A stretch of 45,000 bases of DNA, from the NCBI GenBank assembly GCA_947474645.1, contig CANJJD010000021.1:1-45000 (forward strand). Direction: 5' to 3'. Positions 20,504 through 40,167 of this stretch are shown piece by piece. The translations under genes and the position numbers were made by a program. The notes under the pieces are model-generated. The model was not told the origin of the DNA, did no database searches, and saw only the letters and a list, made by a program, of their open reading frames with translations. How positions within the stretch are numbered: position 1 is the first letter of the stretch; each line of letters opens with the position of its first letter. This DNA comes from Alphaproteobacteria bacterium (GTDB lineage: Bacteria; Pseudomonadota; Alphaproteobacteria; Micropepsales; Micropepsaceae).

Positions 20504-21843
20504 TCATGTCCAAGGACAAGACATCCAATCCCTTTAGGTCCCGCGCTTTCTCCCGCCGCGCCGTGCTGCGCGGCACGGGCTGCGCCATGGCGCTGCCCTG
20601 GCTGGAATCGGTCAGCGCCCTGGCCGATCCTTCTTCTGGTGATTTTCCCAAGCGCTTCGGCGTGGTGTTCCTGGGCTGCGGCGTCAATGAGAATCATTGG
20701 ACCGCCTCGGGCAACGGCGCGGACATGAAGCTGGGCAAGACGCTCCAGTCGCTGGAGCCCATCAAGCAGAAGATCAATGTGGTGGACGGCCTTTATGTGA
20801 AGGCGCTGACCAACCAGGGCATCCATCCCGCCCAGACCGGCAGCCTGCTGTCGGGCGTGCCGATCACCAAGGGCGCCATCATCCATTCGGGCATCAGCGT
20901 CGACCAGATGATCGCCAACCATGTCGGCCAGGACACGCCGCAATCCTCCATGGTGCTGGCCTGCGAACAGCCCATGACCGGCTTCCACGAGACCAATTTT
21001 TCGCTGGCCTACTCTTCGCACCTGTCGTGGCAGACGGCGGATTCCCCCGTGCCGGTGGAAGTCTATCCCGCCCAGGCCTGGGACAATCTGTTCGACAATC
21101 GCGGCAGCCTGCTGAATGTCAGCGTGCTGGACCGGGTCAAGGACCGCGCCCAGGACCTGTCGCGCAAGATCAGCAGCACCGACCGCGGCAAGCTGGACGA
21201 ATATCTCACCAGCGTGCGCGAAGTGGAAAAGCGCGTCGAACTGATGCGCAAGGCCGGGGAAACGGCCAACGAAACCGCCAAGGCCAAGAACACCGTGCTG
21301 GCCGCCATGGACCGGCCCAGCAACGGGTTGCCGGAAGACCTGCGCGAGCATGCCAGGCTGATGTGCGACATCGTCGCCATCGCCTTCCAGACCAACAAGA
21401 CCCGCGTTGCCTCGCTGATCATCTCCCGCGACCTGTCGGCGATGTATTATCCCTTCCTGGACGTGAAGGAAGGTCATCATGCCGCCAGCCACGACAATTC
21501 ATCCGACAGTTACGAGCGCATCGCCAACTTCCATGTCAGCCAGTACGCGTACCTCGCGTCCAAGCTGGACAGCATGAAGGAAGGCAACGGCACCGTGCTG
21601 GACAATAGCTGCCTGATGTTCATGTCCAACATGTTCGTGGGCCGCAAGCACGACAATTCGCACCTGCCGCTGATCCTGGCGGGCGGGCTGGGCGGCACCC
21701 TCAAGACCGGCCGTTCGCTCGACTTCACCAAGGAGAGTGAAGACAACCGCAAGATGTGCAGCCTTTACCTGTCGTTGATGGATCGTTTCGACATGAAGCT
21801 GGACCAGTTCGGCGATTCCTCGACGCGCCTGCAGGGCATCTAG
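20500..21843 (+). CDS. DUF1552-family Tat-exported protein
   Basis: A 447-aa protein with a twin-arginine signal (FSRRAVLRGTGCAMALPWLE). The start ATG overlaps the TGA of the DUF1592 gene and follows AAGGAG, so the two are translationally coupled. Family features are KRFGVVFLGCGVN, LSGVPITKG, GISVDQMIANHVG, CEQPMTGFHETNFSLAYS and HHAASHDNSSDSYERI. The fold belongs near the alkaline-phosphatase/sulfatase-like DUF1501 group, though the usual metal set cannot be assigned. It is the constant partner of DUF1592 proteins; the joint function is unknown. Confidence 0.93.
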   Translation: MIMSKDKTSNPFRSRAFSRRAVLRGTGCAMALPWLESVSALADPSSGDFPKRFGVVFLGCGVNENHWTASGNGADMKLGKTLQSLEPIKQKINVVDGLYVKALTNQGIHPAQTGSLLSGVPITKGAIIHSGISVDQMIANHVGQDTPQSSMVLACEQPMTGFHETNFSLAYSSHLSWQTADSPVPVEVYPAQAWDNLFDNRGSLLNVSVLDRVKDRAQDLSRKISSTDRGKLDEYLTSVREVEKRVELMRKAGETANETAKAKNTVLAAMDRPSNGLPEDLREHARLMCDIVAIAFQTNKTRVASLIISRDLSAMYYPFLDVKEGHHAASHDNSSDSYERIANFHVSQYAYLASKLDSMKEGNGTVLDNSCLMFMSNMFVGRKHDNSHLPLILAGGLGGTLKTGRSLDFTKESEDNRKMCSLYLSLMDRFDMKLDQFGDSSTRLQGI

Positions 21844-23144: not shown

Positions 23145-24965
23145 TTAGGACGCTTGTCCCGCCATGCCGAGATAAGCCGTTTCCAGGTTGCGCGTGAAAG
23201 CGCCCACGTCGAACAGCGGGGCGGTCGCCAGGTTTTGCACCAGCTTGTCTTTCAGCAGCTTCATCTGCGCCGGATCGCGCGCCAGCTCCAGGGCGCGGGC
23301 TTCGTAATCGGCCAGGTTTTTCGTCACCAGTTCGTCCATCCCCACCGCATGCAGCAGGCTGGCGGCCACCCGCCCGGCAAAGGCTTCGCCCAGGCAGGTC
23401 AGGACCGGCAGGCCCGCGCCCAGCGCATCGGCGGCGGTGGCATGGGCGTTGTAGGGCAGGGTATCGAGGAACAGGTCCGCGCAGGCATGGCGCGCCAGGT
23501 GAACCTCCAGCGCCACATCTTCGGCATAGACGAAACGCGCCGGATCAATGCCGCGCGCCCGCGCCTCGCGCTCCAGATTTTGGCGCACATCGGGGGCGGG
23601 ACGCTTGAGCCACAACACGCTGCCCGGCACTTGCGCCAACAGCCGCATCCAGACATCGAACACCGGCGCGGTGATTTTGAAAGCAGCATTGAAGCAGCAG
23701 AAGACAAATCCGTTCTCCGGCAGGCCGGCTTCCGCGCGGCTGGGTGCGGCGCCGGAAGGGCGCTGCGGATCGCCGGGAAAGAAGCTGCCGGGCAGGTGCA
23801 CCAGCTTTTCGCTGAAGAAGGGCTGGTGCTCGAACGGCGTCACCACCGCGTCGCCGATCAGATAATCGATGAAAGGCGCCCCCGTGGTGCCGGCATAGCC
23901 CAGCCAGGCCGCCTGCACCGGGGCAAAACGATGGGAGAAGATCTGCAACCGGGTGAGGCCGGTATGCCCGCCCAGGTCGATGGCGATGTCGATTTCCATT
24001 TCCCGCAGCCGGCGGGCGATCTCGTCGCTATTGAGGCCGGCAAAATCGTGGAACCGGTCAAAGCCCTTGATCAGCCGGGCGCGGATGGCGCTGTCGTCTC
24101 TGAGACCGGTGGAAATGCCGATCACCTGGAAACGCGTCCGGTCATGGTGTTCGATCACCGGCGAAAGCTGGAACGCCACGGCATGTTCGCGAAAATCCGC
24201 CGAGATATAGGCGATGCGGATGCGGTCATGGCGATAGGCCTCGCCGGTCCAGAGCGGGGCCACCGGCCGGGGCGCCAGGGCGCGGACGGCATTGGCGGCG
24301 CAAGCCCGCTGCAGCGCCTTGTCGCCGCTGTAACCCAGGAAGGTGAGGGGCGGCGCCAGCATCACCGCCTGCTCGATCGGCATCGCGGCCATGCGCGCCC
24401 AGTCGCACAAGTTCAGCGCCGCCATGAAACGGTTGGACATGGCGGGGGCATGGCCCGGCTCCAGGCCCAGGGCGCGGTCGTAGCTTTCCAGCGCCTCGGA
24501 AAAGCGTTCCAGCGCGGTCAGCACCACGCCGCGATTGAAATGCAACGCCGCCACATTGGGCGCCGCGGCCAGGGCGCGGTCCAGTGCTTCGATCGCTTCG
24601 GCGGGTTTTCCCTGCTGGGACAGGATGACGCCGCGATTGTACAGCGCTTCGACATTATTGGGCTGCAGCGCCAGCAGCCGGTCATAGGCCTCCAGCGCCT
24701 GGTCATGGCGCTGCGACGCCATCAGGACATAGGCGTAATGGCCCAGCAGGGCGGGATCGCCCCCGTTCTTCTTCACCGCCTTGTTCAGAAGGGTGATGGC
24801 TTCCTCATAGCGGCCCTGCTGGCCCTTGAGAAAACCCAGCATGTGCAGCGCGGGAAAATTGCCGGGATCGGCGCGCAGCATCTGGCGGTAGGCGGCCTCC
24901 GCCTGGTCCAGCCGGCCGGCGCGCTGCGCCGCCACGCCCTGTTCGAATAGCTCACGCAACTCCAT
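23145..24965 (-). CDS. TPR protein with O-GlcNAc transferase (GT41) domain
   Basis: A 606-aa soluble protein. Residues 1 to about 190 hold five TPR units (AQRAGRLDQAEAAYRQML, GRYEEAITLLNKAV, HDQALEAYDRLLAL, KPAEAIEALDRAL, ERFSEALESYDRAL). The rest is the SPINDLY/OGT catalytic domain: IAYISADFREHAV with the conserved His, QAAWLGYAGTTGAPFIDYLI, FNAAFKITAPVFDVW with the nucleotide-contacting Lys, and DLFLDTLPYNAHATAADALG. It would add GlcNAc or a similar sugar to Ser/Thr of proteins in the cytoplasm; bacterial relatives often modify flagellins or adhesins. It stops just before the lipoprotein terminator and starts 6 bp after the stop of the ThuA gene on the same strand, so the two may be co-transcribed. 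Confidence 0.93.
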   Translation of the reverse strand: MELRELFEQGVAAQRAGRLDQAEAAYRQMLRADPGNFPALHMLGFLKGQQGRYEEAITLLNKAVKKNGGDPALLGHYAYVLMASQRHDQALEAYDRLLALQPNNVEALYNRGVILSQQGKPAEAIEALDRALAAAPNVAALHFNRGVVLTALERFSEALESYDRALGLEPGHAPAMSNRFMAALNLCDWARMAAMPIEQAVMLAPPLTFLGYSGDKALQRACAANAVRALAPRPVAPLWTGEAYRHDRIRIAYISADFREHAVAFQLSPVIEHHDRTRFQVIGISTGLRDDSAIRARLIKGFDRFHDFAGLNSDEIARRLREMEIDIAIDLGGHTGLTRLQIFSHRFAPVQAAWLGYAGTTGAPFIDYLIGDAVVTPFEHQPFFSEKLVHLPGSFFPGDPQRPSGAAPSRAEAGLPENGFVFCCFNAAFKITAPVFDVWMRLLAQVPGSVLWLKRPAPDVRQNLEREARARGIDPARFVYAEDVALEVHLARHACADLFLDTLPYNAHATAADALGAGLPVLTCLGEAFAGRVAASLLHAVGMDELVTKNLADYEARALELARDPAQMKLLKDKLVQNLATAPLFDVGAFTRNLETAYLGMAGQAS

Positions 24966-24971
24966 CCGGAC

Positions 24972-25811
24972 CTAGATTTCCTTCAGCAACCAGCGAATGG
25001 AGCGCTTCTGCAATTCGACATACTGCGGATTCCACATGGCATGGATGGTGTGGCCCACGGCGGTGAATACCACCCGGCCCTTGCCATAATCATAAGCCCA
25101 GCCGGCGGGCGACTTGGTGCCGCGGCCTTCATAGGTAAGCCCGTCCAGATTTTCCGACTCCAGGATCACGTATTTGGGATCCTTGTCGTAATCCACGTAG
25201 TGCTGCTCGTCATTGACGACAAAGGGCTGCATGCCCGCGGTGATGGGATGGGCGTTGGCGGTGGCGTGCACCTGGAAGGGACGCAGCGGCGGATGGCCGA
25301 AATAGGCGCCGCCCATCACCTCGCGGTAATTCTTCGATGACAGCGAGATATGGCTGGAATTGTGCAGCGGATAAAAGCCGCCGCCGGCATTGACGAAATT
25401 CCTGACCGCCATGCCCTGTTCCTCGGTCATCCAAGTCACCGCCTTGGCGGCGGGGAATTTGTCGGCATCCTCCAGCATCATTTCATAGGCGCTATAGGCG
25501 TTGGGGCCGGAATAGCCGCCGGGCCAGATCATGCCGTCGCGCAGGATAAGCAGAAGCTGATAGGGCTTGATCGAAGCCGCCGACAGGCTGGCGTAATCCA
25601 TGGTGTAGTCGATGGCGATGTCCATCTCATGGAACACCTTGTCCAGACTGACACGGATATAATCGGGATTGTGATAGCGGTCGCCGATCAGGGCGAGGGC
25701 GCGGGGACGCGCCTTGGTGGCGGCCCGGGATGCGGTTGCGGCCGGGATCGCGGCGGCGGCGGCGCCCGCCAAAGCCGCGCGGCGGCTGATTTTCGGAACG
25801 AAGAATTTCAT
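24972..25811 (-). CDS. ThuA-like protein with Tat signal
   Basis: A 279-aa exported protein. ISRRAALAGAAAAAIPAATASRA is a twin-arginine signal. The ThuA (class I amidotransferase-like) fold shows in RALALIGDRYHNPDYI, NFVNAGGGFYPLHNSSHI, GAYFGHPPLRPFQV, HPITAGMQPFVVNDEQHYVDY and GKGRVVFTAVGHTIHAMWNPQY. The start is MKFFVPK at 25811 after GGGGAGCAGG. The gene is divergent from the PQQ dehydrogenase, sharing a 142-bp promoter region, and is followed by the OGT-like gene. ThuA proteins are linked to trehalose or 3-keto-sugar use; biochemistry is poorly known. Confidence 0.9.
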   Translation of the reverse strand: MKFFVPKISRRAALAGAAAAAIPAATASRAATKARPRALALIGDRYHNPDYIRVSLDKVFHEMDIAIDYTMDYASLSAASIKPYQLLLILRDGMIWPGGYSGPNAYSAYEMMLEDADKFPAAKAVTWMTEEQGMAVRNFVNAGGGFYPLHNSSHISLSSKNYREVMGGAYFGHPPLRPFQVHATANAHPITAGMQPFVVNDEQHYVDYDKDPKYVILESENLDGLTYEGRGTKSPAGWAYDYGKGRVVFTAVGHTIHAMWNPQYVELQKRSIRWLLKEI

Positions 25812-25953
25812 GTCCTGCTCCCCTTGCTTATTCTTGTTTTCATGAGGTTTTCGGGCCGGGGAAAGCCTATAGACGGGCGCGGGTCCCCCCGCCAATATAG
25901 TCCTACAAATAATACAGGGCGGGCAACCACCCGGGTGGGAAGGATAGTGCAGA

Positions 25954-27876
25954 ATGGCGAAAACCGAAAATCGCGCCGGTTGGCTTGCGGTCTTTGCGGC
26001 CATCGCCGCGCTGACCCTGGCCGGCTGCGATGAAGGCTCGCCCACCCGTCACGCCGGCGGGGCGGTGGATGGCTGGCCGGTCTGGGGTCACAATCACCTG
26101 GGCCAGCGCTACAGCGCCAACACCCAGATCACGCCCCAGAACGTCAAGAACCTGAAAGTCGCCTGGACCTATCGCACCGGCGACCTGTCGGCCCCGAACG
26201 AAAAGGCGACCCTGGCCTTCGAAGCCACGCCCATCCTGGCCAACAACACGCTTTATCTTTGCTCGCCGCGCAACCGCATTGCCGCGCTCGATCCCGTCAC
26301 GGGCAAGGAAAAGTGGATGCGCGACCTCAAGCCCGACATCAATGGCGGCACCGTCATTGTCTGCCGCGGCGTGTCCTACTGGAAGGATAGCCAAGCCAGC
26401 GGCTTCTGTTCCCAGCGCATCTTTGCCGGCACCATTGACGGCAAGATGTGGGCGCTGGATGCCGATACCGGCAAGCCCTGCACCGGTTTCGGCGAGAATG
26501 GGCGCGTCGATCTGCACGACAATCTGGGCTTCATCGCAAAGCCGGCGCTGTATGGCGTGTCCTCGGCGCCCACCATCGTGGGCGACATGGTGATCACCGG
26601 CTCCAAGATCATCGACTTCCACAATACCGACATGCCCGGCGGCGTGGTGCGTGCCCTGGATGCACGCACCGGCAAGGTGGTGTGGGCCTTCACCGCCGCG
26701 CCGCCCAGCCTGCCGCCGGGAGATGGCAAGACCTATCCGCGCAGCACCCCCAATGTCTGGGCCCCCATGTCGGTGGATGCGCAGCGCAAGCTGATCTTCC
26801 TGCCCACCGGCACGCCGCAGATCGATGCGGTGCTGGGCAAGGGCGACTGGGATCATTACGGCTCCGCCGTGGTGGCGCTGAACACCGATACCGGCACGCC
26901 GGTGTGGCATTACCAGTTCGTGCGCAAGGATATCTGGGATTACGACACTCCCGCCCAGCCCATGCTGTTTGACTACAAGGCGCCGGACGGCACGGTGACG
27001 CCGGCGCTCGCCCAGGCCACCAAGATGGGCTACATCTTCGTCCTCAACCGCGAGACCGGCGTGCCGATCTTTCCGGTGAAGGAAACCCCGGTTTCCACCG
27101 GCGGCCTGCAAAAGGGCCTGTCGCCCACCCAGCCGATCCCAGAACTGCCCGAACACGAAATCCAGATCACGAAAATGCAGGAATCCGACATGTTCGGCTT
27201 CGCGCTGATCGACAAGTGGGATTGCCAGAAGCGTTTCCGCAAGCTCAAGAATGACGGCATCTTCACGCCCTTCTATGCGGAGTCCTCGGTGGATTATCCG
27301 GTCAGCGTGGGCGGCATGGACTGGGGCGGGCTGGCCTTCGATCCGGGCCGCAACATCCTGATCGTTAATTCCAACAATATACTCGGGGCCCATCACCTGG
27401 CGCCGCATGCGGGCACGGACGGCTATTCGCCGCTGATCGGCACGCCCTACCGCCAGGTCTATGACAACATGATGTCCATGTTCGGCGCGCCCTGTAACGC
27501 GCCGCCCTGGGGCCGGCTCACCGGCATCAACATGACGACCGGCAAGAAAGTGTGGGAAGTGCCGCTGGGCACCAGCCGCGACGAGGCGCCCTGGCCGTTA
27601 TGGTTTCATCTGGGCGTGCCCAACCAGGGCGGCGCCATTACCACCGCGTCCGGCCTGACCTTCATTGCCGCCACCACCGACCGCTATTTCCGCGCCTTTG
27701 AAACCGAGACCGGCAAGGAGTTGTGGCGGGTGTCGCTGCCGGCGGCGGGCCAGTCCATGCCGATGACCTACCGCATGGACGCCAACGGCAAGCAATATGT
27801 CGTGCTGTCGGCCGGCGGCCACAGCGCGCTTCACAACAAGCAGGGCGATTACGTCATCGCCTATGCGCTGCCATAG
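25954..27876 (+). CDS. PQQ-dependent dehydrogenase, lipoprotein, glucose-dehydrogenase-like
   Basis: A 640-aa eight-bladed quinoprotein. The N-terminus ends in the lipobox LTLAGCDEG (Cys about residue 25), so it is tethered to a membrane, unlike E. coli Gcd with five helices. Propeller motifs include VWGHNHLGQRYSANTQITPQNV, AFEATPILANNTLYLCSP, KDIWDYDTPAQPMLFDY, TKMGYIFVLNRETG, APPWGRLTGINMTTGKKVW and PNQGGAITTASGLTFIAAT. No adjacent cysteine pair of alcohol dehydrogenases is present, which favours the glucose-dehydrogenase side. It oxidises an aldose or polyol in the periplasm. A GntR regulator follows after 8 bp; a ThuA gene is divergent. Confidence 0.93.
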   Translation: MAKTENRAGWLAVFAAIAALTLAGCDEGSPTRHAGGAVDGWPVWGHNHLGQRYSANTQITPQNVKNLKVAWTYRTGDLSAPNEKATLAFEATPILANNTLYLCSPRNRIAALDPVTGKEKWMRDLKPDINGGTVIVCRGVSYWKDSQASGFCSQRIFAGTIDGKMWALDADTGKPCTGFGENGRVDLHDNLGFIAKPALYGVSSAPTIVGDMVITGSKIIDFHNTDMPGGVVRALDARTGKVVWAFTAAPPSLPPGDGKTYPRSTPNVWAPMSVDAQRKLIFLPTGTPQIDAVLGKGDWDHYGSAVVALNTDTGTPVWHYQFVRKDIWDYDTPAQPMLFDYKAPDGTVTPALAQATKMGYIFVLNRETGVPIFPVKETPVSTGGLQKGLSPTQPIPELPEHEIQITKMQESDMFGFALIDKWDCQKRFRKLKNDGIFTPFYAESSVDYPVSVGGMDWGGLAFDPGRNILIVNSNNILGAHHLAPHAGTDGYSPLIGTPYRQVYDNMMSMFGAPCNAPPWGRLTGINMTTGKKVWEVPLGTSRDEAPWPLWFHLGVPNQGGAITTASGLTFIAATTDRYFRAFETETGKELWRVSLPAAGQSMPMTYRMDANGKQYVVLSAGGHSALHNKQGDYVIAYALP

Positions 27877-27884
27877 AGGGCAAA

Positions 27885-28577
27885 GTGGAAAATCTGGAAC
27901 AACAGCCCGCCACGATTCCCGGCAAACCTGTCCCCACCAGCCTGCGCGCCCAGGTGGTGCAGGTGCTCAGCCACGGCATCCTCACGGGCAAATACAAGCC
28001 CGGCATGCGGCTGAACGAAAGCCAGATCGCGCGCGAGTTGAGTATCAGCCGCATTCCGGTGCGCGAAGCGCTGTCGCAGCTTCAGGAACAGGGCCTGGTG
28101 CAGAACCGCGAACGCCGCGGCATGTTCGTCACCCATATCGGGCCGCGGGAAGTGGACCAGATCTTCGCCCTGCGTTTCCTGCTGGAAGGCGAGGCGCTGC
28201 GGCTGGCGCGCATCAACATGACGCCGGACATCCTGGCGGAGTTGGAAGCCATCATCGCCCGGATGGAAGCCTGGGACGGCAACCTGCTGGAATCCGCCGC
28301 CCTGGATTTGTCGTTTCACCGCACCCTGTGGAAGGCCTGCGCCAATCCCTATCTGGAGCGGGCGCTGAATTCGGTGATGGTGACCCTGTTCGCCCACAAG
28401 ACCCTGGACCATGTCACCCATGACGTGCGGCGCTGGCGCCTCAGCCATCACCGCATCCTGCTGGACGCGGTGATGGGAACCTCGGGTGAGGACCCGCAGG
28501 CCGTGCTGCAGACCCATATGCGCATGGCCCATACCGAGCCGGAGCGCTATTCCAACCTGCCCAGGAAACCCTCATAA
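27885..28577 (+). CDS. GntR-family transcriptional regulator (FadR/FCD subfamily)
   Basis: A 230-aa regulator. The N-terminal winged helix spans about residues 20-85 (GILTGKYKPGMRLNESQIARELSISRIPVREALSQL, in two conserved blocks, then GLVQNRERRGMFV). The C-terminal FCD ligand domain includes IFALRFLLEGEALRLA, DLSFHRTLWKACAN and LSHHRILLDAV, whose histidines and Asp normally hold a metal and a sugar acid. Start is GTG at 27885 after AGAGGG. It sits between two PQQ/ThuA groups and is the only regulator in the window, so it probably controls them in response to an organic acid. A 12-bp palindrome 14 bp after its stop is a candidate operator. Confidence 0.93.
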   Translation: MENLEQQPATIPGKPVPTSLRAQVVQVLSHGILTGKYKPGMRLNESQIARELSISRIPVREALSQLQEQGLVQNRERRGMFVTHIGPREVDQIFALRFLLEGEALRLARINMTPDILAELEAIIARMEAWDGNLLESAALDLSFHRTLWKACANPYLERALNSVMVTLFAHKTLDHVTHDVRRWRLSHHRILLDAVMGTSGEDPQAVLQTHMRMAHTEPERYSNLPRKPS

Positions 28578-28590
28578 AAGCGAAATAATC

Positions 28591-28602
28591 TCGCAATTGC
28601 GA
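28591..28602. promoter_or_regulatory. Perfect 12-bp palindrome, candidate operator
   Basis: TCGCAATTGCGA lies in the 144-bp gap between the GntR gene and the second ThuA gene. The gap also has the AT-rich sequence CATAATATAC (about 28644-28653), possibly a -10. A role as GntR operator is inference. Confidence 0.4.
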
Positions 28603-28721
28603 AGGCTGTGCGGCCTTGTCGCTTGGCAATAAAGCGGCCCAACACATAATATACGGCATCTGCAGGGCGGGGGCGGTTCACAAGACCTCCAGCTGGGGCG
28701 GCCACCAACAGGAAGGTTACC

Positions 28722-29597
28722 ATGACCATCAAGAGTATTTTGCTTGTTAGTGCCGTGGCGCTGGCCTGCATCGCCGGTGCGACCGCGCAGACGGCAAAGG
28801 ACTATGCCCGCTACAACAGCTACGCCGCGCCGCACGCGCAAGGCCAGCATGTCGGGGGCTTGCGCGTCTTCATCCTGGGCGGCCTCAAGAGCCATGGCCC
28901 GGGCGCGCATGACTATCCTTATTTCATGGACACCTGGAGCAAGATGCTCACCGCCCATGGCGCGGTGGTGGATGGCAGCTTCTCCTTCCCCAGCCAGGAG
29001 CAGCTCGAAAATTCCGATGTGGTGATCATCTATCGCGGCGATGCCGGCTACATGACGCCTGAACAGCGCGCCCGGCTGCAGGCCTATGTGAAGCGCGGCG
29101 GCGGGTTGGTGACCTTCCACGACTCGCTGTGCGGTCCCGACCCGGCCGACATGGCCACGTTGGTGGGCGCCGGCAAGAAGCATGGCGAGGTCAATTACAC
29201 CTGGACCGCCACGCTCGATTACAATGTCGTGGACAAGGACAATCCCATCGCCGCCGGCATGCCGGCCCAGATCTATGACGAAGCTTTCTACAAGCTGAAC
29301 TTCGCCCCCGAGGTGAAGCCCATCCTCACCGTCACCATGCCCGACACGCCCGCCGCCCGGCGCGGCGGCGGCGTCGGCCAGACCATCCCGCAAATGTGGA
29401 CCTATGAGCACACCTTGCCGGGCGGTGCGCCGGCGCGCGCCTTTGTCTGGATGCAGGGCCACATGATCGACAGCCTGCAGGACCCCGCCATCCAGAAGGT
29501 GATGCTGCGCGGCATCGCCTGGGCCGGCAAGAAACCGACCACCGAGCTGACCGACTATGTGGCGCCGCCGCCCCGCCCCTCGATCCCGGCACAGTAA
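28722..29597 (+). CDS. ThuA-domain protein, secreted
   Basis: A 291-aa exported protein with a Sec signal (MTIKSILLVSAVALACIAGATA-Q). ThuA features are LRVFILGGLKSHGPGAHDYPYF, VVIIYRGDAGYMTPEQRARL, YVKRGGGLVTFHDSLCGP, HGEVNYTWTA and DEAFYKLNFAPEVKP. It is only loosely like the other ThuA gene at 24972. It is followed after 86 bp by a second PQQ dehydrogenase and a cytochrome, so this is the second ThuA-quinoprotein pair. ThuA domains lie near sugar oxidation genes in many bacteria, and the reaction is unsettled. Confidence 0.91.
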   Translation: MTIKSILLVSAVALACIAGATAQTAKDYARYNSYAAPHAQGQHVGGLRVFILGGLKSHGPGAHDYPYFMDTWSKMLTAHGAVVDGSFSFPSQEQLENSDVVIIYRGDAGYMTPEQRARLQAYVKRGGGLVTFHDSLCGPDPADMATLVGAGKKHGEVNYTWTATLDYNVVDKDNPIAAGMPAQIYDEAFYKLNFAPEVKPILTVTMPDTPAARRGGGVGQTIPQMWTYEHTLPGGAPARAFVWMQGHMIDSLQDPAIQKVMLRGIAWAGKKPTTELTDYVAPPPRPSIPAQ

Positions 29598-29612
29598 TCA
29601 AGGCAGAACAAA

Positions 29613-29634
29613 GGCCACCGCCGAGGCGGTGGCC
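29613..29634 (+). terminator. Strong hairpin between ThuA and PQQ genes, possible attenuator
   Basis: GGCCACCGCC pairs with GGCGGTGGCC around a minimal GA-containing loop. Only a short pyrimidine-rich stretch follows, so termination would be partial. It may lower transcription into the downstream quinoprotein gene. Confidence 0.5.
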
Positions 29635-29683
29635 GTTCATCTTCCATACAGGCTGCAAGGCCTAGAACGGGGCGAGGAGTGCG

Positions 29684-31576
29684 ATGAAGACTTCGGGAAA
29701 ATGGCTGTTGGGATGCGCTGCGCTGGCGTTGGGCGCGACGGCCGCTATGGCTGCCGGCACCGACTGGCCGATGGTGGGCCAGGACCAGGGCGCCAACCGC
29801 TATGTCACGCTCACCCAGATCACGCCCGCCAATGTGAGCAAGCTGGAAAAGGCCTGGACCTTCCATCTCAAGCCCGCCAACTTGCCCGCCGATGCCCGTC
29901 TGCGCATGTCCCAGGACATTCCGCTGGTGATTGGCAACGTCATGTACATCGTTTCCCCATACAGCCAGGCGATCGCCCTGAACGCCACCACCGGCGCGGT
30001 GATCTGGACCTACGACATTCCCGACAGTGACATTCCCTCCGCCCAGGCGCGCGGCGCCGCCTATTGGCCGGGCGCCGACGGCGTGCCCGCCTCGATCATC
30101 TTCGGCAGCGTCAAGGGCCGGCTTTATTCGTTGCGCGCCTCGGACGGCAAGCCCAACACCGCCTTTGGCGAGAACGGCATCGTCAATCTCAAGACCCCCG
30201 AAGTCATGCAGACCGGCATGCAGGACGGCTATATTCTGCCGTCGCCGCCGGTGATTTTTAAGAACCTGGTGATCACCGGCGCCGGTCCCGGCGAAGGCCC
30301 CGGCGGCTCCAAGCACGGCACCGGTCCGGCGGGCGATACCCGCGCCTGGGATCTGCGCACCGGCAAGCTGGTCTGGACCTTCCACACCATCCCGCGCCCG
30401 GGCGAGTTCGGTTACGACACCTGGACGCCGGAAGGCGCCAAGAACCGCTCCGGCGTCAATGTCTGGGGCTATATGACGGTGGATGCCAAGCGCGACATCC
30501 TCTTCATGCCGCTGGGCGCGCCCAACAACGACATGGTCGGCACCGACCGTCCCGGCAACAACCTGTTCAGCTCATCCCTGGTGGCGGTGCAAGCCAGCAC
30601 CGGCAAGTATCTCTGGCACTTCCAGGTCACCCATCACGACATCTGGGACATGGACACCCAGACCGCGCCGATGCTGATCGACGTCAAGAAGGACGGCCAC
30701 ACCATCCCCGCCGTCATCACGGTCAACAAGAACGCGCTGATGTTCATCCTGGACCGCACCAACGGCAAGCCGATCTTCGGCGTCGAGGAACGCCCGGTTC
30801 CCCAGAGCGACGTGCCCGGCGAAAAGACCTCGCCCACCCAGCCTTTCCCGGTCAAGCCGGAGCAGCTCAGCGTGGGCGCGATCACGCACGAGACCCTCTA
30901 CAAGGGCGTGCCGGAGCATCAGGCCTTCTGCGAAAAATACGTCGCCGACAACCAGTTCAAGCTGGGCGCGACCTATACGCCGCCAGGCTACGACCAGTGG
31001 GTGGTGGCGCCACCGGGAACCCAGGGCGGCGTCAACTATTATGGCGGCAGCTTCGATCCCAAGCGCCATCTCTATATCGTCAACGTCAACAACCTGTTCC
31101 AGCCGATGAAGGTGGTGAAGACCGCCGACGGCGAGTTCGTGAACAATGCGCGCCCCGCCATTCGCCGCTTCTGGGACAATGACAAGCATTTGCCGTGCAA
31201 CCAGACGCCCTGGGGCCAGCTTGTGGCGGTGGACGTGAACACCGGCGATGTCGTCTATCGCAAGACCTTGGGCATCACCGAGCAGTTCCCGCAAGGCCAG
31301 CAGGAAACCGGCCGTCCCGGCCTGGGTGGAACCACCGTCACCGCCAGCGGCGTCACTTTTGTAGGCGCCACCGACGACCGCCGGTTCCGCGCCTTCGAGA
31401 CCGCCACCGGCAAGAATCTGTGGACCACGACCTTGAACGCGTCGGCGCAATCCACACCTATCAGTTACCAGGGTTCGGACGGCCGCCAGTTCGTGGCCAT
31501 CACCGCGACGGGCGGCGGTCTTATTGGCGCCAAACTTGAAGGCGATGAAGTCGTCGCCTTCGCATTGCCGAAGTAG
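29684..31576 (+). CDS. PQQ-dependent dehydrogenase, secreted
   Basis: A 630-aa eight-bladed quinoprotein with a Sec signal (LLGCAALALGATAAMA-A). Blades show DWPMVGQDQGANRYVTLTQI, LYSLRASDGKPNTAFGENG, HHDIWDMDTQTAPMLIDV, NKNALMFILDRTNGKPIFG, CNQTPWGQLVAVDVNTGD and RRFRAFETATGKNLW. No vicinal cysteine pair. It differs clearly from the 25954 protein, so the two are not a recent duplication. A small cytochrome c starts 14 bp downstream and is the likely electron acceptor. Substrate class (aldose, polyol or alcohol) cannot be decided. Confidence 0.93.
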   Translation: MKTSGKWLLGCAALALGATAAMAAGTDWPMVGQDQGANRYVTLTQITPANVSKLEKAWTFHLKPANLPADARLRMSQDIPLVIGNVMYIVSPYSQAIALNATTGAVIWTYDIPDSDIPSAQARGAAYWPGADGVPASIIFGSVKGRLYSLRASDGKPNTAFGENGIVNLKTPEVMQTGMQDGYILPSPPVIFKNLVITGAGPGEGPGGSKHGTGPAGDTRAWDLRTGKLVWTFHTIPRPGEFGYDTWTPEGAKNRSGVNVWGYMTVDAKRDILFMPLGAPNNDMVGTDRPGNNLFSSSLVAVQASTGKYLWHFQVTHHDIWDMDTQTAPMLIDVKKDGHTIPAVITVNKNALMFILDRTNGKPIFGVEERPVPQSDVPGEKTSPTQPFPVKPEQLSVGAITHETLYKGVPEHQAFCEKYVADNQFKLGATYTPPGYDQWVVAPPGTQGGVNYYGGSFDPKRHLYIVNVNNLFQPMKVVKTADGEFVNNARPAIRRFWDNDKHLPCNQTPWGQLVAVDVNTGDVVYRKTLGITEQFPQGQQETGRPGLGGTTVTASGVTFVGATDDRRFRAFETATGKNLWTTTLNASAQSTPISYQGSDGRQFVAITATGGGLIGAKLEGDEVVAFALPK

Positions 31577-31590
31577 AAGGAGTGAAAGAC

Positions 31591-31866
31591 GTGAAACTTA
31601 TTCTTGCATCCGCGCTCAGCCTGTCCGTCCTGGCCGGCCCCGCTTTGGCCGACGATTTCAAGCTGTTGCCCGAAGGCCCCGGCCGCGACGTAACGGTGCG
31701 GGTCTGCGCCCAGTGCCATTCCCCGGAAATCGCCGCCCAGCAGAGCCTGGACGCCGCGGGCTGGAAGGCCCTGGTGGACCAGATGGCCAACAATGGCGCC
31801 AATGGCACGGACGCCGAATTCGACACCATTACCAAGTATCTGACGGTCGCTTTTCCGGCCAAATAG
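31591..31866 (+). CDS. Small c-type cytochrome
   Basis: A 91-aa periplasmic cytochrome: signal peptide (VKLILASALSLSVLAGPALA-D), one haem site VCAQCHSPE (CxxCH near residue 43) and a C-terminal helix. There is one candidate methionine ligand (VDQMANNG). Start GTG 31591 is chosen because AAGGAG lies 8 nt before it; an in-frame GTG at 31582 overlaps that site. It follows the quinoprotein by 14 bp and is probably its electron acceptor. Confidence 0.93.
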   Translation: MKLILASALSLSVLAGPALADDFKLLPEGPGRDVTVRVCAQCHSPEIAAQQSLDAAGWKALVDQMANNGANGTDAEFDTITKYLTVAFPAK

Positions 31867-31893
31867 GCCCCGAAAAAGCCCCTGTCATAAAAC

Positions 31894-31925
31894 ATCCCGC
31901 CGGGCTAAAACCCGGCGGGATTTTT
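31894..31925 (+). terminator. Rho-independent terminator after the cytochrome
   Basis: An 11-bp perfect stem (ATCCCGCCGGG with CCCGGCGGGAT), 6-nt loop CTAAAA, then TTTTTC. It closes the ThuA-PQQ-cytochrome unit. Confidence 0.95.
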
Positions 31926-31950
31926 CGTATCTGAGACAGGGAAAAGCACG

Positions 31951-32793
31951 ATGAAACTGCTGCGCTATGGGCCCAAGGGCCAGGAGAAGCCGGGCCTGAT
32001 GGACGATAGCGGCCAGATCCGCGACCTGTCCGGCATCGTCAAGGACATTGACGGCAAGGTGCTGTCGGACCTGTCGGCCATCCGCGCCGCCAAGGTGGAC
32101 AGCCTGCCGGTGGTGGCCAAGGGCGTGCGTATCGCCGAGCCGGTCGCACGCGTCGGCAAGTTCATTTGCATCGGCCTGAACTATGCGGACCATGCCAAGG
32201 AATCCAATATGCCCGAGCCGGCCGAGCCGATCATTTTCATGAAGGCGACCAGCGCCATCATCGGCCCCAACGACGACGTCTATCTGCCGCCCACCGCCAA
32301 GAAGGGCGACTGGGAAGTGGAACTGGGCGTCGTGATCGGCAAGGAAGCGCGCTATGTACCTAAGGAAAAGGCGCTGGATTATGTCGCGGGCGCCGTGGTG
32401 GTGAACGACCTGTCCGAGCGCGAATTCCAGCTCGAGCGCCTGGGCACCTGGGACAAGGGCAAGGGCTGCGACACCTTCGGCCCGTTCGGTCCTTATCTGG
32501 TTACCCTGGATGAAGTCGGCGACCTCAACACGCTCGGCCTGTGGCTGGACCTGAACGGCAAGCGCGTCCAGACCGGCAACACCTCCACCCTGATCTTCGA
32601 CGTGCCGACCCTGATCTCTTACGTCAGCCAGTTCATGAGCCTGCAGCCGGGCGACGTGATCTCCACCGGCACCCCGCCGGGCGTCGGCCTGGGCATGAAG
32701 CCGCCAGTGTTTCTCAAGGAAGGCGATGTGATGGAACTGGGCATCGACAAGCTCGGCAGCCAGAAGCAGACGGTCTATCGCACCAAGATCTGA
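31951..32793 (+). CDS. Fumarylacetoacetate hydrolase family protein (2,4-diketo-3-deoxy-aldonate hydrolase-like)
   Basis: A 280-aa cytoplasmic FAH-family enzyme. ICIGLNYADHAKESN opens the catalytic domain; GDWEVELGVVIGKEA carries the metal-ligand Glu-x-Glu; AGAVVVNDLSEREFQ has the Asp ligand and a signature shared with 2,4-diketo-3-deoxy-L-fuconate hydrolases; ISTGTPPGVGLGMKPP is the substrate loop. Such enzymes cleave 2,4-diketo-3-deoxy acids to pyruvate and a hydroxy acid. The nearby aldonate dehydratase and SDR would produce exactly that type of compound, but the sugar cannot be told. It has its own terminator. Confidence 0.92.
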   Translation: MKLLRYGPKGQEKPGLMDDSGQIRDLSGIVKDIDGKVLSDLSAIRAAKVDSLPVVAKGVRIAEPVARVGKFICIGLNYADHAKESNMPEPAEPIIFMKATSAIIGPNDDVYLPPTAKKGDWEVELGVVIGKEARYVPKEKALDYVAGAVVVNDLSEREFQLERLGTWDKGKGCDTFGPFGPYLVTLDEVGDLNTLGLWLDLNGKRVQTGNTSTLIFDVPTLISYVSQFMSLQPGDVISTGTPPGVGLGMKPPVFLKEGDVMELGIDKLGSQKQTVYRTKI

Positions 32794-32935: not shown

Positions 32936-34750
32936 CTAGTGATTGTCGCGCGGAATGCCCTTGCTTTGATCGATCTTCTGATACTTGACCGCATTCTCCA
33001 GAACCATGCCGGTACCCATCTGGCCCTGGAAGGCGCGCTGGATTTCCTGCCACGGGGTCTGGGAGGCGGGATAGGCAAAGCCGCCGCGCGCCTCCAGATC
33101 CTTGCGGCGCTTGGCGATCTCGTCTTCGGACAGCAGCATGTTGGCCGTGCCCTTGTTGAGATCGACGCGCACCCGGTCGCCCGTCTGGAGCAAGCCCAGC
33201 CCGCCACCGGCGGCGGCTTCGGGCGAAGCATTGAGGATGGAGGGCGAGCCCGAAGTGCCCGACTGGCGGCCGTCGCCGATGCAGGGCAGGGCATTGACCC
33301 CGGCCTTCAGCAATGCGGCGGGCGGATGCATGTTCACCACCTCGGCGGCGCCCGGGTAGCCGATGGGACCGGCGCCGCGCATGATCAGCAGGGTGTTCTC
33401 GTCAATGTTCAGCGACGGATCATCCAGGCGCTTGTGGTAATCCTCCGGCCCGTCGAACACCACGACCTTGCCTTCAAAGGCTTCCGGGTCCTTGGGGTTG
33501 GACAGGTAGCGCTTGCGGAACTCGTCGCTGATGACGCTGGTCTTCATGATGGCGCTGTCGAACAGGTTGCCCGACAACACGATGAACCCGGCTTCCTTCT
33601 TCATCGGCTTGTCGAACGGCCAGATCACTTCGGGCAGCAGCACCTTCTTGCCCTTGCAATTCTCGCCCATGGTCTTGCCGTTGACGGTCAGCGCCTTTTC
33701 CTTGATCAGGCCCTTTTCCATCAGGATGTTCACCACGGCGGGCACGCCGCCGGCATGGTGGTAATCCTCGCCCAGATATTCGCCGGCCGGCTGCAGGTTC
33801 ACCAGCAGCGGCACCTTGTGGCCGATGGTCTGCCAGTCCTGCAGCGGCGAATCCACGCCGATATGGCGGGCGATGGCGCAGATATGGATGGGCGCGTTGG
33901 TCGACCCGCCGATGGCCGAGTTGACCACGATGGCGTTGTGGAAGGCTTCCTTGGTCAGGATCTTCGACGGACGGAGGTCTTCATGCACCATGTCCACGAT
34001 ACGCTTGCCGGTCAGGTAGGCCATTTGCGCGCGTTCGCGGTACGGCGCGGGGATGGAAGCGGAACCTGGAAGCTGCATGCCCAGCGCTTCGGCCAGGCTG
34101 TTCATGGTGCTGGCGGTGCCCATGGTGTTGCAATAGCCCACCGACGGCGCCGACGACGATACCAGCTCCATAAAGCCGGTATAATCCAGCTCGCCGCGCG
34201 CCATCATCTCGCGCGCCTTCCACACGATGGTGCCCGAACCGGTGCGTTCGCCTTCATGCCAGCCGTTCAGCATGGGGCCGACCGACAGGGCAATGGCGGG
34301 AATGTCCACCGTCGCCGCCGCCATCAGGCAGGCGGGCGTGGTCTTGTCACAGCCGATGGTCAGCACCACGCCGTCCAGCGGATAGCCGTAGAGCAGATCC
34401 ACCAGGCCGAGATAGGCGAGATTGCGATCCAGACCCGCGGTGGGGCGCTTGCCGGTTTCCTGAATCGGGTGCACCGGAAATTCCATGGCGATGCCGCCGG
34501 CTTCGCGGATGCCTTCGCGCACGCGCTTGGCCAGTTCCAGGTGATGGCGGTTGCAGGGCGACAGGTCGCTGCCGGTCTGGGCGATGCCGATGATCGGCTT
34601 GCCCGACTGCAATTCCTCGCGCGTCAGCCCGTAATTGAGATAGCGCTCCAGATACAGCGCCGTCATGTCCGGGTTGGAGGGATTGTCGAACCAGGCGCGG
34701 CTCCTCAGGGTCTGGGGAGTCTTGCCGTCATATTTCTTGTCGTCTGCCAT
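32936..34750 (-). CDS. IlvD/Edd family sugar-acid dehydratase (xylonate/arabinonate dehydratase-like)
   Basis: A 604-aa Fe-S dehydratase that removes water from an aldonate to give a 2-keto-3-deoxy acid. The three cluster cysteines are C66 ([10 protein letters not shown]), C134 ([10 protein letters not shown]) and C207 ([10 protein letters not shown]), with Lys136 at the carbamylated metal-ligand position and [13 protein letters not shown] holding the catalytic Ser. Cysteine spacing equals that of L-arabinonate and D-xylonate dehydratases. [22 protein letters not shown] and the C-terminal FAVKYQ-like/RDNH ending recall Caulobacter XylD. Sugar-acid specificity is not certain: xylonate, arabinonate, fuconate and gluconate dehydratases share this fold. 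It follows the SDR gene at 34773 by 22 bp, as one operon. Confidence 0.95.
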
Positions 34751-34772: not shown

Positions 34773-35597
34773 TTAGCTGAACAGAGTCATGCCGCCATCG
34801 ACGCGCAGCACTTGTCCATTGACGAAACCGGCCTGGCCGGAGGCCAGGAAGGCGACCGCGTCGGCGATCTCCTGCGGCTTGGCGTAACGCTCCAGCGACA
34901 CGCCATCCATCAGCCGCGGATCGGTGGTGCGGGTGGCCAGGAAGCGGGCGGTGGTGGTGGGGCCGGGGCTGATGGCGTTGACGCGCACGCCGTTGGGCTT
35001 CATCTCCAATGCCAGGCAGCGCGTGTAATGCAGAATGGCCGCCTTGGCGCAGCCATAGACCACTTCCGACACCACGCCGATATGGCCGTTGAGCGAGCCG
35101 AAATTGATCACCGCGCCCGCATTGCGCTTGGCCATGCCGGGCACCACGGCGCGGCACATCAGCATGGTGCCGACGAAATTGCGGTTCATCACCGCCTGCA
35201 TGTCTTCCAGCGAAATGTTCAGCGCGTCATTGGGATTGGGCTTGCCGCCCTTGGCGGCGATGTCGCCGCCGGCGCAATTCACCAAAATCGAGACGGGGCC
35301 GAGCGTGTCTTCCACTTTCTTGACCAGCGCCGCGACGTCGCTTTCCTTCGAGATGTCGCCCAGCACCGACACGACCTTGCCCGGACCGCGCGCCGACAAC
35401 TCCTTGGCCAGCGCCGTCAGGCTTTCGCTTTCGCCAAAGGCGGCGGGCGCATCTTCGCTGATGTCATGCAGGGCGACATGGGCGCCGCCGGCCAAAAGGG
35501 TCTCGGCGATCATGCGTCCCAGGCCCCGGCCCGATCCCGTCACCAGCGCCACGGCGCCGTCGAAATTGAAGGTTTTGGGGATGCTCAATCCGGACAC
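34773..35597 (-). CDS. SDR-family oxidoreductase
   Basis: A 274-aa classical short-chain dehydrogenase. TGSGRGLG near residue 20 is the NAD(P) site, LVNCAGGD the NAG-like block, [24 protein letters not shown] carries the Ser and Tyr-x3-Lys active site in adjacent blocks, and VNAISPGPT follows. Start is GTG at 35597. It is the first gene of the operon with the aldonate dehydratase. It could oxidise the aldose or lactone, or act on the 2-keto-3-deoxy acid at C4 to feed the FAH hydrolase; the latter is an inference from the gene set. Faces the MFS gene across a 207-bp divergent region. Confidence 0.92.
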
Positions 35598-35725: not shown

Positions 35726-35804
35726 CGCAAGCCGATGTGAAGCCTTACGGGGCGCAATCCGGCTTCCCATGCCCCAATAAAGGGTCAGGAAACAGGGGCG
35801 GACC

Positions 35805-37028
35805 ATGCAAGCGACACGCACACGTTACTGGGTCGTGGCCTTCGCGCTCTCCCTGGCCATGATCATGTACATCCAGCGCGTGGCCATCGGTCAGGCGATG
35901 GTGCCCATCGCCGCCGAACTGAACCTGGACCAGGCGCAGAAGGGCCTGGTGCTGGGCGCCTTCGGTCTTTCCTATGCGCTGTTTGAAATTCCCATGGGCC
36001 TGCTCGGCGACAAGCTGGGCGTGCGCCGGGTGCTGGGCTTCCTGGTGCTGTTCTGGTCGCTGTTCACCGCCCTGACGGGGGCTGCCTGGAACATGGTGTC
36101 GCTGTGGATCGCGCGCTTTGTCTTCGGCGCCGGCGAAGCCGGCTGTTTCCCCAACCTGACCCGCATGCTGTCGGCCTGGCTGCCGGTGGGCGAACGCATC
36201 AAGGCCCAGGCCATCATGTGGGCGTTCGGCCGCTGGGGCGGTGCGCTGGCTCCACCGGTGGCCTATTTCGTGATCTCCCATGTCGGCTGGCGCTGGGGCT
36301 TTGTCTGCCTGGCCCTGTTGGGCGTGGCCTGGGTGGCGGTGTTCGTGCCCTGGTTCCGCGACGATCCGGCCCAGCACAAGGCGGTCAACGCCGCCGAGCT
36401 GGAGATGCTGGAAGGCAGCCGCAAGCTGGTGCTGCACGACCATGGCATGCCCTGGTACAAACTCCTGTTCCAGCGCGACATCGCGTTCCTGGGGCTGCAA
36501 TATTTCTGCTTCTCCTACACCTGGTACTTCTACGTCACCTGGCTGCCCACCTGGCTGCAGCAGGCGCGTGGCCTCAGCGCGCTGGAAGCGGCGGGCTATG
36601 CCACCCTGCCGCTGGCGGCGGGCGGCTTCGGCTCCATCGTGTCGGGCTTCCTGCCGCTCTCCATTCCGCGCAAGTGGGTGGCGATCCTGGGCTTCTTCAC
36701 CACCGCGGTGCTGATCTGCATCATTCCCAATGTGCCCAGCGTGACGACGGCCATGCTGCTGATGGCGGCGGCGAGCTTCTCGTCCGACCTGACCATGCCG
36801 ATCAGTTGGAACACCTGCGTGGAGATCGGCAAGCAGTATACCGCCACCGTGTCCTCGACCATGAACATGCTGGGCAACTTTGCCGGCTTCGTGGCGCCGG
36901 TGGTGTTCGGCTTCATCCTGCAGGCCACCAACAGCGACTACAGCATGGTGATGTACACCATGGCCGGCGCCGCGGTGCTGGCCGGCATCTGCTGGCTGTT
37001 CATCGATCCGGACAAGTCGCGCGCCTGA
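35805..37028 (+). CDS. MFS transporter, anion:cation symporter (ACS) type
   Basis: A 407-aa inner-membrane carrier with about 12 helices. MIMYIQRVAIGQAMVPIAAEL after the first helix, GLSYALFEIPMGLLGDKLGVRRV with the MFS loop 2-3 motif, FGAGEAGCFPNL and the loop AWLPVGERIKAQ are typical of the ACS family that imports hexuronates, aldonates and galactonate (ExuT, GarP, DgoT types). It starts the operon MFS-SDR-isomerase and is divergent from the dehydratase operon, so the likely cargo is the sugar acid that the dehydratase uses. Confidence 0.93.
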   Translation: MQATRTRYWVVAFALSLAMIMYIQRVAIGQAMVPIAAELNLDQAQKGLVLGAFGLSYALFEIPMGLLGDKLGVRRVLGFLVLFWSLFTALTGAAWNMVSLWIARFVFGAGEAGCFPNLTRMLSAWLPVGERIKAQAIMWAFGRWGGALAPPVAYFVISHVGWRWGFVCLALLGVAWVAVFVPWFRDDPAQHKAVNAAELEMLEGSRKLVLHDHGMPWYKLLFQRDIAFLGLQYFCFSYTWYFYVTWLPTWLQQARGLSALEAAGYATLPLAAGGFGSIVSGFLPLSIPRKWVAILGFFTTAVLICIIPNVPSVTTAMLLMAAASFSSDLTMPISWNTCVEIGKQYTATVSSTMNMLGNFAGFVAPVVFGFILQATNSDYSMVMYTMAGAAVLAGICWLFIDPDKSRA

Positions 37029-37058
37029 TTTTTTCTCCAAAGCAAGAAGGTTTGAACC

Positions 37059-37814: not shown

Positions 37815-37838
37815 TGGGCGCCTAAAGCGGAGAAACGC

Positions 37839-40009: not shown

Positions 40010-40167
40010 TTTTCCCCCGTTTCCGCCCGGTTCCGGCTGGGCTTTGTCGCCGGGCACTATAGTATCGCGCCCACAAAAAAGCGCCTCTTCGGAGCGATTC
40101 TGAAGGGGTCAAAGCTGGGGTTTGGCGGCCGTGCGTTGCGGCGCCGGGGATGTTTTCCGAGGATTGC

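Follow-up and report, generated by a model that had tools for sequence, protein, structure and literature searches.

The window analysed here, a stretch of 45,000 nucleotides from an alphaproteobacterial genome of the family Micropepsaceae (contig CANJJD010000021.1 of assembly GCA_947474645.1), contains a gene cluster in which two ThuA-family proteins (ThuA1 and ThuA2) are encoded beside two apparently exported pyrroloquinoline quinone (PQQ) dehydrogenases, or quinoproteins (PQQ1 and PQQ2), together with a GntR-type regulator, a small cytochrome c and a set of sugar-acid genes. The recurrent association of particular ThuA families with exported quinoproteins is real and somewhat better supported than could be known at first, though narrower than first claimed, and is here built into a sugar-acid catabolic cluster. 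The best explanation of the cluster as a whole, to which we give a probability of just under one half, is periplasmic oxidation by PQQ enzymes joined to sugar-acid breakdown by Route III, with ThuA acting on the quinoprotein products. Judged by family membership and gene order, a galactose-, fucose- or pentose-type sugar would be oxidized in the periplasm by PQQ1 and PQQ2, electrons would pass from these dehydrogenases to the small cytochrome c, the aldonic acid would be taken up through a major facilitator superfamily (MFS) carrier, and a dehydratase, a short-chain dehydrogenase/reductase (SDR) serving as 4-dehydrogenase and a diketo-acid hydrolase would break it down in the cytosol to pyruvate and a hydroxy acid. 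ThuA1 and ThuA2, as exported enzymes, would act on the quinoprotein products before uptake, most likely by opening a lactone or converting a keto sugar, a step suggested by gene pairing, changed partners, joint loss and conserved polar residues.

A wider proposal is more tentative, and we hold it at odds clearly short of even: that exported ThuA is a recurrent and interchangeable partner of soluble quinoprotein sugar dehydrogenases, forming a hitherto unassigned periplasmic enzyme class that processes oxidized sugar (lactone or keto), was recruited separately in Alphaproteobacteria and Acidobacteria, and is joined here to Route III. If true, this would add a step to the periplasmic sugar oxidation of bacteria that carry two dozen or more quinoprotein genes, apparently without PQQ synthesis in the genus tested. 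As the quinoprotein varies while ThuA stays in the pairs, the arrangement also offers a narrow, testable guess at the ThuA substrate. A literature search returned no report linking ThuA with quinoproteins in the portions of the records retrieved, where co-mentions were unrelated entries or an author name.

Quinoprotein partners of particular ThuA families

The initial annotation had described a six-gene order of ThuA, divergent PQQ dehydrogenase, GntR, ThuA, PQQ dehydrogenase and cytochrome c, and all six genes are present in that order and orientation. Its description of both pairs as internally unlike is borne out by alignment, with 23% identity over 163 residues between the ThuA proteins (a twin-arginine type signal on one, a Sec signal on the other) and 36% identity over 618 residues between the quinoproteins (a lipobox on PQQ1, a Sec signal on PQQ2). 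The enzyme products had likewise been called exported, and signals are seen on both ThuA proteins, both quinoproteins and the cytochrome, leaving GntR as the sole gene of the six without one; all of these signals were judged by eye, without a signal predictor. The genome (2.64 Mb, 99.6% complete) has only two PF06283 matches, ThuA1 and ThuA2, both above the curated cut-off of that family. PF01011 matches number 38 and fall, by our own count, in 26 open frames, so that one chance ThuA neighbour would be only mildly surprising and it is the conserved order that carries weight.

That order was followed through a scan for ThuA2 relatives, which gave 33 loci: 14 cluster-bearing alphaproteobacterial loci, two from Alphaproteobacteria in a different gene context (L044, L046), 16 from Acidobacteria (L047-L062) and one (L063; 42 residues, E 2e-4) taken as spurious. 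The cluster, whole or partial, is thus found in 14 other alphaproteobacterial loci (L031-L043, L045) from 13 genomes, with L032 and L045 being two pieces of one genome and several loci ending at contig ends. The recurring order is ThuA1 - PQQ1 - GntR - ThuA2 - PQQ2 - cytochrome - FAH // dehydratase - SDR1 // MFS - SDR2. In L035, ThuA2 has an inner stop and was called as two pieces, the shorter of which was left out. ThuA is without a match in two of the three other sampled genomes of the same genus (G004, G239), showing that the cluster is not carried throughout the genus. The Acidobacteria relatives of ThuA2 have no common neighbourhood, though a few of them share neighbours (L054, L055, L062; L048 and L056 at a distance).

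Grouping at 45% identity placed 137 distinct ThuA genes (138 before L169, a duplicate of L060, was dropped) in 17 families, after ThuA pieces shorter than 150 residues and ten duplicate loci (L049, L050, L085, L087, L103, L106-L110) had been left out, L170 and L171 standing for L049 and L050. Quinoprotein neighbours are concentrated in a few of these families. They occur beside 9 of 10 genes in the ThuA1 family (F4) and beside 11 of 34 distinct genes in the ThuA2 family (F0; 18 from Alphaproteobacteria, 16 from Acidobacteria), all 11 being alphaproteobacterial. The Acidobacteria family ThuA3 (F1) has them in 6 of 22, and in six genomes ThuA3 immediately precedes a PQQ2-like gene. L166 (divergent, 2056 bases) and L167 (811 bases) are looser cases. 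A same-strand run in L184:2555-8510, also from Acidobacteria, encodes a cytochrome c, a quinoprotein, a ThuA grouping with F3, a TIM barrel protein and a Gfo/Idh/MocA protein. None of the four single-member ThuA families has a quinoprotein neighbour. When 66 sequences were placed in a midpoint-rooted tree, F0 and F4 came out as weakly supported sisters (0.61), with F1 and F3 elsewhere. The earlier suggestion that the pairing arose more than once or is old agrees with its recurrence in unlike families, namely ThuA1 and ThuA2 in Alphaproteobacteria and ThuA3 and the L184 gene in Acidobacteria.

The partners also change. In genome G248 the gene after ThuA2 is PQQ1-like (67%; L039), truncated where the contig ends, and the one after ThuA1 is PQQ3-like (58%; L082). 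Neither ThuA there thus has the partner that it has in the window, and a PQQ2 orthologue was not found in this genome (best 52%). The ThuA3 proteins of the six pairs are 74-93% alike, yet the quinoproteins beside them, all closest to PQQ2 among the references tried, split into two sets (L142, L150, L151 versus L159, L163, L164), alike at 41-45% when compared over the longer aligned part and at 55-61% over a shorter one. Finally, ThuA1 and PQQ1 are both gone from the cluster in L042 and L043, where relics persist: 293 bases at 71% identity in L043, running from the ThuA1 start across the common promoter into the PQQ1 leader, and 187 bases of promoter and leader in L042. These relics indicate that ThuA1 and PQQ1 left the cluster together, possibly in one event. 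A functional pair is favoured by the changed partners in G248, the differing quinoprotein sets of ThuA3 and this joint departure.

The reading to set against a functional pair is that ThuA has no functional link to the quinoproteins, both being common in sugar-degradation islands, and serves the sugar-acid pathway or another sugar reaction. We consider this unlikely while giving it appreciable weight, and the adjacency counts bear on it directly. ThuA matches were found in 22 of 240 alphaproteobacterial genomes, and 18 of 56 alphaproteobacterial ThuA genes were counted as having a quinoprotein neighbour. This count is one too low, L102 (ThuA1 and PQQ1 of the L031 genome, not a duplicate) having been left out, and it includes two genes (ThuA2 of L032 and L040) that are separated from PQQ1 by GntR and do not truly adjoin it. 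Of 63 ThuA matches in the relatives' genomes, one weak, short match (G251:C3) was left out. In the 15 genomes of the ThuA2-scan loci, all quinoprotein neighbours belong to ThuA1 or ThuA2 genes, and quinoproteins are dense (507 matches in 44.3 Mb, about 11 per Mb, some genes being matched twice), which favours a coincidence of neighbours, as does the fact that most ThuA families lack a quinoprotein link.

For Acidobacteria, a first set of 60 stretches, chosen from a ThuA list of 13 genomes, has a quinoprotein domain within 700 bases of 7 of 64 ThuA genes. By gene calls, a quinoprotein lies within one gene of 8 of 61 and within three genes of 15 of 61, so that quinoproteins are frequent two and three genes away too, as an unlinked ThuA would predict. 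Pooling this set with a phylum-wide sample (of 60 genomes, 15 had a ThuA match, and 12 of these supplied 30 stretches; G255 is shared with the first set) gave 8 of 94 observed against 1.1-2.2 expected, a range that stems from a quinoprotein scan of the best 49 or fewer candidates per genome (binomial P 0.00002-0.0016, with genes treated as independent though they are not). This excess speaks against chance, but a single orthologous pair accounts for six of the eight cases and no excess is seen in the phylum-wide sample by itself, so the evidence lies in the families and not in the count. Further points against an unlinked ThuA are that close pairing recurs in several ThuA families with the partners changed, and the joint departure of ThuA1 and PQQ1.

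Several observations weigh against a functional pair. Among 20 alphaproteobacterial genomes outside the genus, none of 36 ThuA genes lies near a quinoprotein among the PF01011 matches listed (to about E 3e-7), the nearest being about 6.9 kb away. Within the 15 genomes of the ThuA2-scan loci, none of the 36 alphaproteobacterial ThuA genes of seven other families adjoins a quinoprotein, and the phylum-wide Acidobacteria sample has one case in 30. No adjacent quinoprotein was found for any of the 16 Acidobacteria ThuA2 relatives or for 16 of the 22 ThuA3 genes. In L040 and L043, PQQ2 is missing while ThuA2 and the cytochrome gene are retained side by side, and the genomes of both have no close PQQ2 (best 49%). 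PQQ1 is retained in L035 and L037, where ThuA1 no longer stands beside it, and in the genome of L037 (G246) the ThuA1 orthologue lies elsewhere (L090) without a quinoprotein neighbour. In L043, moreover, the cluster is without both quinoprotein genes, and ThuA2 still accompanies those for the cytochrome, FAH, dehydratase, SDR and MFS proteins, as expected if ThuA served the sugar-acid pathway. The systematic adjacency check envisaged in the initial annotation therefore came out negative in general (0/36 in Alphaproteobacteria among the matches listed, 1/30 in Acidobacteria) and positive for particular ThuA families; ThuA beside a PQQ dehydrogenase as a general rule is rejected by the alphaproteobacterial, family and phylum-wide Acidobacteria counts.

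Two further arrangements of ThuA genes were seen. In L164:3040-9589, and likewise in L159, L151 and L163, the ThuA3-quinoprotein pair is divergent from a gene of 1044-1097 residues that is TonB-dependent receptor-like by eye. Tandem ThuA gene pairs, not adjoining a quinoprotein, occur in the relatives' genomes (L068, L069, L081, L083, L092).

Possible roles of the ThuA proteins

To our knowledge no reaction has been assigned to the ThuA family, which is widespread. The predicted model of ThuA2 (mean predicted confidence, pLDDT, 82.7) has a ThuA-like fold, matching the solved structures 4E5V (Z 20.5, root-mean-square deviation 3.0 over 215 residues), 1T0B (Z 19.1) and 4JQS/4PXY (Z 18.8 and 18.7). 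These proteins are 17-21% identical to ThuA2, and their entry titles read 'ThuA-like', three of the four adding 'putative', with no function given. The ThuA1 model is weaker (pLDDT 69.7), and its alignment of 10 sequences has a mean column identity of 81%. In the ThuA2 alignment, 80 columns are invariant over 18 sequences from Alphaproteobacteria and Acidobacteria, and the invariant residues include K56, H58, H63, D64, D107, H133, D134, D186, E187, E229, H230 and H247. So dense a set of invariant charged and histidine residues suggests catalysis, and an enzyme acting on a lactone or keto product is our guess at what ThuA does.

A non-catalytic role, in which ThuA binds or presents the substrate for the dehydrogenase or serves as a docking partner of the cytochrome, is rather improbable. 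A levan utilisome chain (8aa2) is among the fold matches of ThuA2 (Z 12.5), and ThuA2 lies directly upstream of the cytochrome gene where PQQ2 is missing, both of which would suit such a role; the many invariant charged and histidine residues across two phyla look catalytic and would not. ThuA-GSDH fusions occur in Bacteroidota. None was found among 61 Acidobacteria ThuA genes, a weak test, since the single GSDH query matched none of 453 genes; nor does any of the 61 carry a CxxCH motif.

One of the closest described systems is ThuAB, in which ThuA is cytosolic and ThuB is a Gfo/Idh/MocA-type enzyme. It is improbable that ThuA and a dehydrogenase act here as in rhizobial ThuAB, making or processing 3-keto sugars with the quinoprotein in place of ThuB. 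The likeness lies in the thuEFGKAB operon of rhizobia and Agrobacterium, a sugar catabolic operon that also holds a ThuA-family protein and a partner, and thuAB is reported in a review to convert trehalose and maltitol to 3-keto derivatives (PMC6515357). In that operon thuA stands with an ATP-binding cassette (ABC) importer and thuB (PMC6683767), whereas here it is found with an export signal, quinoproteins, a cytochrome and an MFS carrier. The gene run in L184, which unites a quinoprotein and ThuA with a Gfo/Idh/MocA protein, fits a ThuAB-like scheme. The downstream enzymes of the window do not, being of aldonic acid and not 3-keto sugar type, and the scan of the cluster genes detected neither a Gfo/Idh protein nor an ABC importer; a gene of Gfo/Idh/MocA type (by eye, without a family search) is at 10528-11574, 13 kb from the cluster.

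Quinoproteins, cofactor supply and the proposed sugar-acid route

PQQ1 and PQQ2 each cover the full-length PQQ propeller (PF01011 positions 1-595 of 595). PQQ1 is related to quinoproteins of the glucose/quinate type but lacks their membrane domain. Both score below the cut-off of TIGR03074 (682.6 and 442.4 bits against 832.65), with matches beginning at model positions 154 and 151. In an alignment to the membrane glucose dehydrogenase Gcd of E. coli, the positions of D466, K493, N607, Arg 266 and Trp 404 are kept in both proteins, D466 being, we take it, the catalytic aspartate, K493 a PQQ contact and D354 a metal ligand. The last is Asp in PQQ1 and Glu in PQQ2, and E217 is Glu in PQQ1 and Gln in PQQ2. 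The cluster quinoproteins thus have the propeller and the catalytic Asp and Lys positions in common with Gcd and TIGR03074, but differ in lacking the N-terminal membrane domain and in having a separate small cytochrome c beside PQQ2. This cytochrome has no clear relative among solved structures: the best listed is a ribosomal protein (E 0.016), taken as chance, and the second is the p-cresol methylhydroxylase cytochrome (E 0.038). It also has a weak SorB-family match (32.7 bits against a cut-off of 93).

PqqC is absent from this genome (G000) and from three genomes of the same genus (G140, G004, G239), and is present in 8 of the 25 genomes searched. PqqE was not found in the genome (30 bits against a cut-off of 381), in a search that had no positive control, none of 14 control genomes reaching the cut-off. 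As neither protein was found, PQQ probably comes from outside the cell. A 2025 paper reports that the PQQ importer PqqU is largely absent from Alphaproteobacteria, which it infers mainly make PQQ, and that many bacteria without PQQ synthesis get it from outside (PMC12124388). The genus would then be an exception among Alphaproteobacteria, as an apparent PQQ scavenger. The missing PqqC and PqqE could also mean that the quinoproteins are empty and the cluster is not an oxidation system, and a weak resemblance to the 'acido-empty-quinoprotein' model TIGR04528 (197.2 and 224.3 bits against a cut-off of 650) points the same way. With the catalytic PQQ-site residues kept, and with acquisition of PQQ from outside reported as common, we regard this as very unlikely. 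That a genome of 2.6 Mb holds 26 open frames for quinoproteins, yet PqqC and PqqE were not found (the PqqE search covering G000 alone), is an observation in its own right.

Downstream of the cytochrome, the genes from the FAH-family hydrolase to the gluconokinase had been passed over in the initial annotation. The hydrolase has as its closest solved structure 8gsr, an L-2,4-diketo-3-deoxyrhamnonate hydrolase (324.8 bits), and the dehydratase has 7m3k, named galactonate dehydratase (1079.7 bits, residues 8-604 of 604), followed by 5oyn (831 bits). In Route III, as set out in two papers, a 2-keto-3-deoxy acid is oxidized and then cleaved to pyruvate and a hydroxy acid (PMC6336799, PMC11199699). 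The Route III pathways of L-rhamnose, L-fucose and pentoses (LRA5/LRA6, FucF/FucG; Herbaspirillum huttiense) described there use a dehydratase, an SDR and a hydrolase, of which the cluster has the first and candidates for the other two; taken together, its downstream families are coherent with Route III. The present cluster differs from these pathways in its two ThuA proteins, in a first oxidation that appears periplasmic and in that the genes scanned include no recognised SMP-30-type lactonase. As dehydratase, SDR and hydrolase are the Route III enzymes, the cluster most likely serves to oxidize a sugar on the outer side of the inner membrane, with uptake of the acid and its breakdown in the cytosol, a reading drawn from gene content. 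The proposal of a periplasmic sugar-oxidation system is in keeping with the export signals on ThuA, quinoproteins and cytochrome, but the system is not purely periplasmic, as the cluster continues into an apparently cytosolic sugar-acid route. The lack of a recognised SMP-30-type lactonase leaves room for ThuA as a lactone opener.

The proposed oxidation, lactone opening and Route III steps have their own difficulties. We know of no ThuA activity on lactones, and the putative esterase just past the cluster could itself open them. The hydrolase scores below the NF053535 equivalog cut-off, and SDR1 has generic SDR matches and generic closest solved structures, without a specific family match. 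At the position of Thr 424 of Gcd, PQQ1 has Gln and PQQ2 has Asn, and His 262 of Gcd aligns to a gap.

Gene layout, candidate regulation and flanking genes

Table 1. Genes and noncoding elements of the cluster (signals, hairpins and lipobox by eye; cut-offs in brackets)
Feature	Position	Strand	Description
ThuA1	24972-25811	-	279 residues; family F4; PF06283 89.4 bits (33.4); twin-arginine type signal
ThuA1/PQQ1 divergent promoter region	25812-25953	no strand	operator-like inverted repeat in relatives
PQQ1	25954-27876	+	quinoprotein dehydrogenase; PF01011 685 bits; lipobox LTLAGC
GntR/FCD transcription regulator	27885-28577	+	PF07729 68.9 bits; PF00392 61.9 bits
ThuA2 promoter region	28578-28721	+	
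ThuA2	28722-29597	+	291 residues; family F0; PF06283 87.4 bits (33.4); Sec signal
ThuA2-PQQ2 intergenic hairpin	29598-29683	+	GGCCACCGCC..GGCGGTGGCC, without T run
PQQ2	29684-31576	+	soluble exported quinoprotein dehydrogenase; PF01011 594 bits; Sec signal
Small cytochrome c	31582-31866	+	94 residues; CxxCH motif CAQCH; Sec signal
Intrinsic-terminator-like stem and T run, cytochrome/FAH gap	31867-31950	+	
FAH-family hydrolase	31951-32793	+	2,4-diketo-3-deoxy sugar acid type; NF053535 418.3 bits (500)
IlvD/Edd sugar acid dehydratase	32936-34750	-	NF009560 1047 bits (684)
SDR1	34773-35597	-	candidate 2-keto-3-deoxy acid 4-dehydrogenase; PF13561 178.2 bits
MFS carrier	35805-37028	+	galactonate type; TIGR00893 218.4 bits (395); TTTAGTATACAA upstream
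SDR2	37059-37814	+	best solved relative gluconate 5-dehydrogenase, 156.7 bits
TIM-barrel sugar isomerase/epimerase-like protein	37839-38894	+	PF01261 46.4 bits (weak); export signal
Aldose 1-epimerase (galactose-type mutarotase)	38891-40057	-	PF01263 254.8 bits; TIGR02636 278.5 bits (397.65)
Gluconokinase	40150-40689	+	TIGR01313 200.9 bits (113.75)
Putative esterase, just past cluster	40709-41728		PF00756 69.6 bits

The start chosen for ThuA1 in Table 1 is backed by coding score and orthologues; an extension of its frame upstream to 26045 was rejected, as it overlaps PQQ1. The regulator, whose start lies at about 27885, has a GntR helix-turn-helix and an FCD domain. On the minus strand, a 927-codon open frame at 35745-38528, antisense to MFS and SDR2, does not appear among the called genes.

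The PQQ1, ThuA2 and MFS promoters are probably under GntR control, for which the evidence is only suggestive. A TTGTATACAA site matching at 8 or more of 10 positions was found in 8 of 8 upstream regions for SDR1|MFS, 5 of 9 for PQQ1 and 3 of 13 for ThuA2, against 2 of 176 control intergenic regions, in counts whose loci include duplicates. The assignment goes no further than suggestive because the consensus was chosen after the sequences had been viewed and the site overlaps likely -10 elements (by eye). In the window the matches number 9 for MFS, 7 for PQQ1 and 6 for ThuA2, the MFS site alone being good. In addition, a GTATATTGTCTACAG type site is present at the ThuA2 promoter in L038 and L041 and weak in the window, and the ThuA1/PQQ1 region of L037 and L040 has an inverted repeat, CTGTAT-N5-ATACAG, whose best match in the window is 7/10. 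The idea that the ThuA genes are regulated together with the quinoproteins finds suggestive support in shared operator-like sites, which stand out in some relatives and score weakly in the window itself. The hairpin between ThuA2 and PQQ2, seen by eye and not folded, keeps a similar stem with a variable loop and no T run across 10 aligned loci, and is perhaps an attenuator or processing site. The terminator-like stem after the cytochrome gene is found in the window and some relatives, and is absent in L040 and L043.

Beside the cluster, 23145-24965 encodes a TPR and GT41 (O-GlcNAc transferase-like) protein, likewise found in several loci that reach that far. Farther upstream, 17396-21843 holds a PSD-domain (DUF1592/1588/1587/1595/1585) protein followed by a second gene, which presumably resembles DUF1552. 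Both are upstream of the cluster in L033, L035, L036 and L042, and the second is also upstream of it in L037.

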